DNA of 64,000 bases from Apostichopus japonicus (taxonomy: Eukaryota; Echinodermata; Holothuroidea; Aspidochirotida; Stichopodidae), in assembly GCF_037975245.1 (NCBI RefSeq), contig NC_092576.1, positions 42,971,611 through 43,035,610 of the forward strand, given 5' to 3'. Below are positions 28,396 to 43,056 of this stretch, one piece after another. The notes under the pieces were generated by a model. The model saw only the letters and a program-made list of their open reading frames with translations. It was not told the DNA's origin and did no database searches. The number at the start of each line of letters is the position of its first letter. The first letter of the stretch is position 1. A program made the position numbers and the translations under genes.

Positions 28396-28670
28396 CTACC
28401 CAGCAAGCAAGCCGAAGTCGGCCCGACGGCGGCCCGGCTTCGGCACCGAAGTCGGCCCGACGGCGGCTGCCGCCGGCGGGCCGCCGTAGATTTGGCAGAC
28501 GGCAAGTCGGCGGACCGCGGGCGTAAACGCCGCCGGGCCACCGGCGGGCCACCGGCGGCTCAAGGCTGGCCCGCCGGCGGCTCAAAGCAGGCCCGCCGGC
28601 GGCTCAAAGCAGGCCCGCCGGCGGCTGGCCGACGGCAAATCAGCAGCCCTGGGGTGGCACGCCGCTGGAC
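28396..28670. repeat. GC-rich subterminal array, left
   Basis: About 275 bp of very high GC in an AT-rich setting, built from GGCCCGCCGGCGG-type words. It includes three ~22-bp copies of GCCCGCCGGCGGCTCAAAGC around 28565-28625. The array starts abruptly with CCCAGCAAGCAAGCCG. Long Gly/Ala/Arg open frames here are composition artefacts. Confidence 0.85.
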
Positions 28671-29960
28671 CGCCCGCAATTCGAGGCTCGTCCACAGTCG
28701 TATACTGAGTGTATTGTCGGTGGTATGCTGATGTCTTTCAATTATTTTTTTCTTCCATTTATACTTTATATTTATACTGAGACCCCGCTGTAATAGTCAA
28801 ATAGATTATTTTCAAAAATTGTGACGGTTGATGAAATATGGAATTCGCATTACATTTCCAGCTGGAAACTAGTCACTGCATGTGTGTATTTAAGTGGGAC
28901 ATTTTCGAAAAGTTTTATTAATTGAATATCCAGAAACACTGTAGGGGACAACAAAACTTTTAGAAGTTTGTATTCCAGATATAACGACAGTTAAGTGAAA
29001 CCAAAATTTTAATAAAAACATAAGACAAGGAGCATTGAAATAACATTGTCACAATTTATTAATTTAATGCATTTTCCTTTAATTACCAGATGTTTTAGCC
29101 ATTTATGAACAATTAACTTTAATTATTTGATAAAGCCACAGAATGAAGCAAAAGAGTGAAGCAAATTTATCAAAATACTTGCCATCATAATATCTAAAGA
29201 AGACGCCCACAGTGCGCCGAAATAGAAACAGTGTAGAAAGGAACAATGCGCAGTCGTCGTTCCCTCCATTTTTTGCTTAATTATACTGTGGACCATCACA
29301 AAGCTGTTTCAACAAGAATAAAGCAAAATCAGTACATTATATGTTGACTTTGCAACCGCATTGATATGATATGAGAAAACATGTTTTTACAAACGGAACG
29401 TTTCACCCTCCCTGCCGTACCCCCCCCCCCCCCGGCCACCACTTATTTGGTAATACAGGGACACCAATTTGTTATTTTTTATACCAGGGCATTAATATCA
29501 GGGACTTTGAAGAACTTGAACCCTTTGCTCGGAATATCATGATCATTCCGTACCTCGCATTGTTGGCCTTTACATCTCATTATGAGCTAGAGTTTCGTTA
29601 AATACACATGTAATTAAACAATACTACGACTGAAGAGTATTTCTCTTGAGGGAAAACTCAGTATAACAACCAAATATTCTTACAAAAAGTATCATAGGGG
29701 AGAGATACAGTATATGCAATAATTGGACGTACTGGTGATAAGTCTTGACTGGTGGTTAAATATGTAAAATACTACCAAAAGGATGAGCCAAAATATATGA
29801 CCATATTGGTAAGCATGCATTTGCATATATCGTAACAATTAAACTGCACAAATTGAGATTTCAATTGCATGAAGTGAATCCATGGCTGTAACTGACGTGA
29901 GGAACATAGTAGATTCTGCAATACAAGAAAATTATGAAGAGTATAACAATGTAAGTGTAA
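28671..29960. other. Putative 3' flank inside the large element; no gene
   Basis: AT-rich sequence between the left GC array and the end of the DUF4806 gene. A C homopolymer lies near 29420-29433. No coding frame is supported. Confidence 0.45.
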
Positions 29961-30030
29961 CAGTTTAATATATATGCAGAAATAAAAGCCATGTATACAT
30001 GGCTTTTATTTCTGCAGATATATTAAACTG
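29961..30030. repeat. 70-bp near-perfect palindrome, no loop
   Basis: The arms 29961-29995 and 29996-30030 are reverse complements with a single mismatch and zero spacer, centred on ATGTATACAT. It lies 26 bp beyond the stop codon of the minus-strand DUF4806 gene. A transcript would form a ~30-bp hairpin there. Confidence 0.9.
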
Positions 30031-30056
30031 CCGAAGGATACAGCTATAACGAAAGG

Positions 30057-41330: not shown

Positions 41331-41417
41331 TCGTCTGGTTCACTTTCCTTGTGTTCTGGTTCGATGACGGATAGCAACGTCTCACGTAGGCTTCAAGTAT
41401 ACGTGATCGACGGCAAA

Positions 41418-42440
41418 CGCGTATGGGAAGCCATGTAAGACAAACACTGCATAATATATCCGCGTATTAATTTGAATATATACGCGTATAATTAAATTCG
41501 AACAAATACGTGTATATATTTTTAACCAATCATAAGGTCCAAATATATCCGCGTAGTAATTCGATTATAAACACGAATTAATTCGAATACATATATGAGG
41601 ATTAATTCCTCAAAATTTTTAACCCAAAAGGTATACAAAATGTCAGAATCTTGACCTTTTATCTCCAAATTTTGATTGTTAAAGTCAAATTCGTGACATA
41701 AAAGGTACAATAAAAGGTCAACATTTTGACTTTAAAGTCAATATTTTAATATTTTAAATATTTTAATATACTTGATAGGATGAAAAGAGATTTGTTTTAT
41801 TTTTAATCTCAACATTTTGAGATAGAAAGTTAAAAATTATGAGATAAAAAAAATCAACATTTTGCGATTTGAGGACAACTTTTTTCCTTCCTTTGTTCCT
41901 ATTAAGCCTCCGTGTGTAGTTGACGAATTAACTTCCAGGGGTAAGATTGAGAAGGGTCGCTTAGCGTCCTTCATCCGGAATAGAAGGCTTTCATGATATT
42001 TCCTACTTTTTACTATTTGATTTGAATTTTCGGGGTACTCCAAAGTTGAGGGTTGGGGAGTGATTGCTCCCCTGGGTAAGTCCATGCACGCGGTTTAATT
42101 CATATATATATATATATATATATATATATATATATATATATATATATATATATATATATATATATATATATATATATATATATATATATATATATATATA
42201 TAATATATATCGCGTATTAAGTCATGATGTGGTCTAGATTTAGTACGTTGGCCAGGGCGTACGTCAATATAGAGACTAACTTTGTCATCTCTCATTTATT
42301 GAACTGGCGAGGCTAATGCGGGTGACAGATATAAGACATGCAATATATGATTAAAACACGTATGAATTCGAATTAATACGAGGATATTAATACGAGGATA
42401 TATGCGGTGTTTGTCCTATATGGCTTTGCCATATACACGC
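41418..42440. mobile_element. ~1-kb inverted-repeat element with a (TA)n core
   Basis: The left end ACGCGTATGGGAAGCCATG, followed by GACAAACACTGCATA and ATATCCGCGTATTAAT, pairs with the complement of the right end (GGCAAAGCCATATAGGACAA, ACACCGCATATATCC). The imperfect match runs about 55 bp. The rest is AT-rich and non-coding. It sits between the promoter region and the right GC array of the large element. Confidence 0.65.
42102..42202. repeat. (TA)n microsatellite
   Basis: About 50 TA dinucleotides, inside the element at 41418-42440. Tyr/Ile frames across it are artefacts. Confidence 0.98.
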
Positions 42441-42671
42441 GGCGCCGATGCAGCTTTACTGGATCGGAACGGCCGGTGTTATATTCATATATTTAACATT
42501 TGCAGTGAATTAACACGTAATCCATAAGTCCAAGCGGATCTGTTATTAGGATTATATAGAACGATAATCTGACGGCAAATTTAATTTGCTTATCTATTAC
42601 CGATAAATTTCCAGCTTACGATATGAACAGGTCACTCAAAACGGCTTAAATACGTAAAGTAAGCGATATCG

Positions 42672-43056
42672 GCATGACGCCTCCGGCTCCCCGGCGGTAT
42701 GCCGCTTACTTGCCGCCGGTGGCATCTCGGCCTTCATCCGCCGGCGGTAAACCGCTCCTTTACCGCGGGCGGCTTGCCGCCTGCTCACCGCCGTCGGCCC
42801 GCCGGGGGTAAACCGCTCCTTTACCGAGGGCGGCTTGCCGCCTGCTCACCGCCGTCGGCCCGCCGGGGGTAAACCGCTCCTTTACCGAGGGCGGCTTGCC
42901 GCCTGCTCACCGCCGTCGGCCCGCCGGCGGCAGGCCGACGTCGGCAAGCCGCATGTTAGCCGACGTCGGCCCACCGGCGGGTATTAAGCGGTTTGCCGCT
43001 GCCGATATGCCGCTGGTATGCCGCCGGCGGCCCGACGTCGGCTTGCTGGCTGGGTA
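42672..43056. repeat. GC-rich subterminal array, right
   Basis: High-GC block including three 61-bp tandem copies (TAAACCGCTCCTTTACCG at 42748, 42809 and 42870) plus GGCCCGCCGGCGG and CCGACGTCGG words shared with the left array. It ends abruptly with CGACGTCGGCTTGCTGGCTGGG at 43055-43056, the inverted counterpart of 28396. Confidence 0.85.

Follow-up and report, generated by a model that had tools for sequence, protein, structure and literature searches.

What is a DUF4806 gene, encoding an animal domain of unknown function, doing beside a transposase gene, and do the two genes work as one? The pair lies in a 64,000-bp stretch of the Apostichopus japonicus genome (GCF_037975245.1, contig NC_092576.1; C16:42971611-43035610 in our contig numbering), hereafter the window, whose positions are used throughout. 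A sequence-only reading of the window had described, between 28396 and 43056, an animal transposon of the En/Spm design. In maize En/Spm, TnpA binds subterminal repeats, and the transposase open reading frames (ORFs) lie in intron 1 of tnpA. As that reading had it, a 677-codon tnp2-like ORF and a six-coding-exon DUF4806 gene run in the same direction; both are open and on the minus strand, and the limits given prove correct to 1 base: the whole transposon, with its sense on the minus strand, spans 28399..43054 (14,656 bp), flanked by TA target site duplications at 43055..43056 on its 5' side and at 28397..28398 on its 3' side. It is a genuine, complete, autonomous-looking cut-and-paste DNA transposon, and the two genes are parts of this one mobile element and move together.

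What identifies it as a transposon? Its ends recur elsewhere. In the genome search (671.6 Mb, 35 contigs; only best-scoring candidates were kept, so all genome counts are lower bounds), family A was compared at 11 loci, the window copy (A1) and ten others: the six copies with both ends in the fetched sequence start with CCCAGC, finish with GCTGGG and have the same dinucleotide on either side (A1 TA, A2 AT, A3 AA, A5 TA, A7 TA, A10 TA). Two copies of subfamily B end in CCCAGT/CCCAGA and have duplications of TA and TT. Taken together, all eight copies have identical 2-bp flanks (TA five times, AT, AA, TT), and none has identical 3-bp flanks. When the two flanks of each copy were joined and searched against the fetched sequence, three of the eight queries (A2, A3 and A5) aligned through the junction with paralogous empty sites that hold a single copy of the dinucleotide, at five, five and six places, respectively, a few of these alignments containing a small gap; the other five queries found no empty site in that sequence. 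With up to two mismatches allowed, the family-A terminal pattern has 23 occurrences in the genome, against 0 for the reversed control; they form seven facing pairs 13.1-17.4 kb apart plus nine single ends. The terminal repeats are imperfect, with the outermost 35 bp inverted at 31/35 positions. The GC-rich inverted arrays reported outside both genes do lie there, but only this outermost part is inverted; further inward the arrays are alike in kind at the two ends, not exact inverted copies. The 2-bp duplication and the CCCAG ends also set a limit to the En/Spm label. CACTA elements make a 3-bp target duplication (PMC8978399), and membership in canonical En/Spm, the plant CACTA type, is rejected on both the duplication and the ends, while the layout of the two genes, with the transposase ORF upstream of the second gene, stands. 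By its ends and duplication, rather than by a tree, the element would belong to the CACTA-related (CMC-type) group and there to the animal TRC sort.

Could the pair be a chance neighbourhood, a transposase relic next to an unrelated host DUF4806 gene? When matches less than 6 kb apart are merged, 71 tnp2 matches give 53 loci; a DUF4806 match lies downstream on the same strand at 38 of these, and at 40 once an exon from subfamily D is used as the query, which adds C14:3469929 and C8:40767625. All seven elements with two family-A-pattern ends hold both genes. The spacing between the tnp2 and DUF4806 matches is repeated within each subfamily: 58 bp at 7/10 A loci, 49 bp at 7/8 B loci and 159 bp at 11/14 D loci. 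In subfamily B (A and B were read whole, D in part), the tnp2 acceptor lies 15 nt before the ATG, the tnp2 stop codon is 35 bp from the next exon and the six exons are in homologous places, with the DUF4806 frame intact in one of the two copies and frameshifted in the other. The one point in favour of chance is a small set of DUF4806 loci, five of 43, without a detected tnp2, and one of these five orphans (C17:17015959) is itself a truncated family-A copy; the D-subfamily exon query returns one further, weak orphan, C12:21034615 (E 0.006). With the pair recurring at 40/53 tnp2 loci, at a repeated spacing, and inside termini bounded by target duplications, chance neighbourhood is refuted by the other genomic copies and retains a negligible probability. 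The distribution of the loci is uneven: C17, which makes up 5.5% of the genome, bears 25/53 tnp2 loci (binomial 7.5e-18) and 9/11 family-A loci; 22 of these 25 fall between 15.5 and 25.5 Mb, where recombination may be low or the chromatin heterochromatic.

The transposase ORF (35097..37130, minus strand) is open and encodes a tnp2-type DDE transposase of 677 aa. CMC/CMCT DDE transposases show, in order, D, D, C(2)C, H(3-4)H and E (PMC12730594). By eye, the window protein follows this rule with D201, D278, C297-x2-C300, H493-x3-H497 and E517, and these residues are identical in all four aligned members (two from A, two from B). In Pfam the window transposase matches DUF4218 alone, at E 0.0019 and 18.5 bits, below the cut-off of 27; DUF4218 is also the family reported for 4/4 tnp2 members scanned, and Transposase_21 (PF02992), the domain expected of TRC transposases, was not reported at E up to 10. 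Viral contigs scanned with the tnp2 alignment yielded 39 pattern matches, among which no relative was confirmed. An additional coding gene upstream of tnp2, suggested by a 138-aa frame at 37486-37070, is rejected: the frame is open in the window alone and has in-frame stops in eight other aligned copies.

The DUF4806 gene, downstream on the same minus strand, consists of six exons separated by five GT..AG introns and forms a single open frame of 369 aa: exon 1 (34838..35043, ATG at 35042); exon 2 (34418..34517), with a KRRK basic patch; exon 3 (33760..34019), a low-complexity linker; exon 4 (33207..33430), with a coiled-coil-like stretch and the first part of the DUF4806 domain; exon 5 (30798..30957), with the remainder of the domain; and exon 6 with the stop codon (30057..30217). 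The heptad pattern that precedes the domain keeps the same register in A and B; its a/d positions are filled at 7/10 (A) and 8/10 (B), equalled by 269 and 51 of 5000 shuffles, respectively, and taken alone it is a weak signal. One source, which cites Pan et al. 2023, places DUF4806 among the BEN domains as a subtype (PMC11075544). Among BEN proteins, BANP has a coiled coil and must oligomerize to select unmethylated CGCG, and BANP and BEND3 prefer unmethylated CpG (PMC11472053). The product of the window gene resembles BANP, BEND3 and NACC1 in its reported BEN subtype, and BANP also in the coiled-coil-like stretch near the domain; it differs in being encoded by a transposon; the BEN relation is that given in PMC11075544. 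The product is probably a nuclear, oligomeric BEN-type DNA-binding protein.

Both genes look constrained. Between A1 and the subfamily-B copy B2, amino-acid identity is 49% for tnp2 and 41% for DUF4806, with proportions of synonymous differences (pS) of 0.80 and 0.79 and of nonsynonymous differences (pN) of 0.35 and 0.41. Within family A, pN/pS between the window and A2 is 0.10 for each gene; between the window and other copies it is 0.18-0.70 for tnp2 and 0.05-0.33 for DUF4806, and over all pairs of at least 80 codons 0.59 and 0.21. The higher values for tnp2 are consistent with post-insertion decay. Since these ratios are below 1 and pN is below pS between A1 and B2, both proteins look maintained, a judgement made without a formal test. 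Silent divergence between the window and A2 is 0.018 in tnp2 and 0.081 in DUF4806; in addition, the 3' region of A2, A4, A5 and A8 is 5.6-6.1% divergent from the window, versus 0.8-2.8% in the other six copies, and the start of exon 6 differs. Together these differences suggest a mosaic family, as if 3' parts had been exchanged.

How would one element make two proteins? A promoter near 41.2-41.4 kb may give rise to one pre-mRNA; the candidate promoter and exon 0 (41171..41371, minus strand, exact start not fixed) end at the donor GAG|GTAAGT. Splicing of exon 0 to 35043 would yield the DUF4806 mRNA, with the tnp2 ORF inside intron 1, whereas splicing to 37136, or retention of the stretch, would yield a transposase mRNA that also holds the downstream DUF4806 exons. 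A candidate shared poly-A signal, AATAAA, follows the DUF4806 stop codon at 30005..30010 (minus strand). As had been noted from the letters, a splice acceptor directly precedes each ORF: one, with its AG at 37138-37137 and a 6-nt leader before the tnp2 ATG (37131..37138, minus strand), and one at the end of the 53-bp gap between the tnp2 stop codon and the DUF4806 exon (35044..35096, minus strand). Counting the window, aligned family-A loci retain the donor at 41171 in 8/8 cases and each acceptor in 9/9. The donor context could be located at eight family-A loci and not at three; all eight have NRF-1-like GCATGCGC cores in the 400 bp upstream of the donor. In subfamilies A, B and D alike, the second acceptor is exactly 1 nt before the DUF4806 ATG, because of which exon 1 seems to need a spliced leader from upstream. 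In family A, translation from the final ATG of this putative exon 0 (ATGAG|) would stay in frame on entering DUF4806 but not on entering tnp2, which could favour DUF4806 over the transposase.

And what would the second protein bind? Each end carries a terminal repeat and a GC- and CpG-rich array, together spanning (minus strand) 42641..43054 at the 5' end, with 12 CCG....CGG sites in the first 375 bp, and 28399..28724 at the 3' end, with nine in the last 300 bp. In 200 shuffles of the A1 arrays, this motif occurs on average 1.2 times (maximum 5) at the 5' end and 0.87 times (maximum 5) at the 3' end. In B1, the 5' array has CCG....CGG five times (shuffle mean 0.29, maximum 2), and the 3' array has [CT]GG[CT]GG 28 times (mean 3.98, maximum 10). 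Six array motifs were tried in all; CC....GG showed no clear enrichment in the arrays. The end stretches have a CpG observed/expected of 1.2-1.6, compared with 0.48-0.57 for the element bodies and 0.58 for the remainder of the window. Autocorrelation, ranked without a shuffle control, places lag 11 in the top five at all four ends of A and B. The A1 5' array peaks at a lag of 61; its motifs are spaced by 25, 36, 50 and 61, values that equal 11n plus 3 or 6.

With these pieces, we favour, at moderate confidence, a joint reading: a transposon of the TRC sort in which one promoter and splicing give both transposase and DUF4806, with DUF4806 binding the arrays. At each end the protein might coat the CpG-rich array with its 11-bp pitch, possibly only in the unmethylated state; array-bound DUF4806 would then join the element ends and present them to the transposase. 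Given the reported BEN subtype and the oligomerization that BANP needs to select unmethylated CGCG, an oligomeric DUF4806 on an array of 11-bp pitch would be a natural candidate for the part of TnpA. A bolder proposal, which we offer tentatively and which may well not hold, makes DUF4806 a conserved TnpA equivalent in animal CACTA-related transposons, a BEN-type oligomer recognizing the CpG arrays of both ends in their unmethylated form, so that the element tests its own methylation before moving; many "host" DUF4806 genes of animals (zebrafish, Hydra, mosquito, beetle) would then be transposon genes or their descendants. In the accessible part of the literature on DUF4806 we found no link to a transposon; the table of a Hydra paper also lists transposase domains.

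A number of observations weigh against the joint reading, and those on transcription may be taken first. The donor at 41171, presented in the sequence-only reading as the one strong donor far upstream, is strong but not unique: among the 288 GT sites of the 5' region it shares first place with one other. By a crude score, the window tnp2 acceptor ranks 27th of 341 AGs. In subfamily B the top score among 5' donors goes to another site, located 34 nt ahead of the tnp2 acceptor; the candidate donor further upstream is outscored by three and equalled by six. NRF-1-like cores, present in 0/2 B copies, are not conserved. Decayed copies have lost DUF4806 splice sites, one in A6 and three in A9. The window copy has five AATAAA hexamers in intron 1 and one in the tnp2 ORF, making separate transcript ends possible. 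These other good donors, found in the 5' region of both A and B, and the hexamers upstream of and inside the tnp2 ORF would suit two transcription units, each with its own promoter, whose intron-1 layout would resemble that of En/Spm in appearance only. Such an arrangement leaves little room between the genes, just 53 bp (A) or 35 bp (B) from tnp2 stop codon to DUF4806 exon, no AATAAA or ATTAAA occurs in that gap in A1 or B1, and the acceptor 1 nt before the DUF4806 ATG speaks against it in three subfamilies. We consider two separate units unlikely.

The remaining points concern the second protein and its arrays. Pfam DUF4806 (PF16064) matches the window protein at E 1.5e-4 and 22.5 bits, below the 25-bit cut-off; the subfamily-B protein matches at E 4.1e-8. 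Neither Pfam nor a profile search of the PDB gave a BEN match. Other searches were uninformative either way: PDB searches by sequence or profile returned nothing of use, a PF16064 search of the host genome gave 0 matches, its 14 control genomes being likewise silent, and viral contigs scanned with the DUF4806 alignment gave 58 pattern matches and no confirmed relative. In the arrays, CCG....CGG occurs 0 times at the B1 3' end, and exact 8-bp palindromes are not enriched. Nor do the tnp2 ORF and the DUF4806 exons always travel together, a check that the sequence-only reading had put forward: 13 of the 53 tnp2 loci, all with at most 45% identity, have no detected DUF4806. At the one of these 13 that was read, C17:25000397 (33% identity), there is no DUF4806 exon within ~310 bp of the tnp2 stop codon; this lineage may have another second gene, or a DUF4806 gene further off. 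C17:25000397 and five further loci at 32-33% identity make up a divergent tnp2 lineage in which open frames are long and no DUF4806 match was found nearby.

Does DUF4806 then serve transposition at all? It might be a passenger, or a regulator or anti-silencing factor that, for example, opposes promoter methylation, as the TET/JBP genes of fungal transposons illustrate. Related transposon groups do carry such non-transposase genes (PMC12730594), and the 33%-identity lineage, in which the stretch read next to tnp2 lacks a DUF4806 exon, would fit this reading. It is harder to square with an association, position and exon layout kept over ~50% divergence, with the constraint on DUF4806 (pN/pS 0.21 over all pairs) and with CpG-rich arrays at both ends, which suit a multivalent binder. 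That DUF4806 is in the element in this other capacity strikes us as improbable.

Other sequence lies within and beside the element. A nested insertion in intron 4 (31475..32798), outside the element proper, has CAGGGGCG/CGCCCCTG ends, an 8-bp duplication GTCAAACA and 138-bp tandem repeats; we take it to be hAT-like. The 138-bp repeats are rejected as part of the element, this insertion being private to the window copy and absent from the ten other family-A loci. Direct repeats of ~212 bp (27376-28372) flank the 3' end of the element; at about 27.6-27.95 kb they are broken by GC-rich DNA with sequence in common with the 138-bp repeats. Elsewhere in the window, a 385-aa open frame (7579-8736, minus strand), sulfotransferase-like by eye, is a possible host gene, and Rfam gave 0 matches over the window at the gathering threshold.

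With this element, an animal domain of unknown function gains a concrete setting, a transposon origin is raised for some animal DUF4806 genes, and a natural system comes into view in which CpG methylation could gate transposition. What appears to be new is the identity of the second protein (DUF4806), its conservation and the CpG-rich arrays. The literature searched holds no description of DUF4806 as the second gene of a transposon; Repbase and subscription papers lay outside that search, and an earlier Repbase description is possible.

How does the element compare with known systems? With maize En/Spm it shares a tnp2-type ORF upstream of a multi-exon second gene on the same strand, possibly within one transcription unit, and arrays of short repeats at both ends; it differs in having a 2-bp instead of a 3-bp duplication, CCCAG instead of CACTA ends and a DUF4806 protein with no shown relation to TnpA. 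The fungal CMCT elements ESTA and Plavaka, compared here by description, likewise have short duplications, namely TA for ESTA and 2 or 3 bp for Plavaka, but are fungal, carry a TET/JBP dioxygenase as the extra gene and belong to a group whose termini are mostly CA..TG (PMC12730594). Closest are the TRC elements (DeMarco et al. 2006; PMC1636069), known as SmTRC1 in Schistosoma mansoni and from Aedes aegypti and Tribolium, whose ends have a CCC core (CCCAGTCAAC in Aedes) and which show 2-bp direct repeats in 7/14 SmTRC1 copies. The window element shares with them a tnp2-type transposase, CCC-core termini (CCCAG in A and B) and the 2-bp duplication seen in 8/8 copies. Alternative splicing of SmTRC1, documented by expressed sequence tags and reverse transcription PCR, yields a transcript for the transposase and shorter transcripts that encode other proteins, and was likened to that of TnpA and TnpD (PMC1636069); because splicing to two proteins is thus published, an En/Spm-like design in an animal was already known. 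The second SmTRC1 protein was expected to do the DNA-binding job of TnpA, with no relatives detected in other elements (PMC1636069). The conserved DUF4806 of a TRC-like element may fill this gap, and makes the prediction of a TnpA role testable. The two elements are far from identical: SmTRC1 is ~4.5 kb long, with 54-bp terminal repeats and the proteins PrA (EMBL AM268207) and PrB, for which the same source gives no detectable relatives (PMC1636069), whereas the window element has a DUF4806 gene conserved between subfamilies and long, CpG-rich arrays of 11-bp pitch at both ends.

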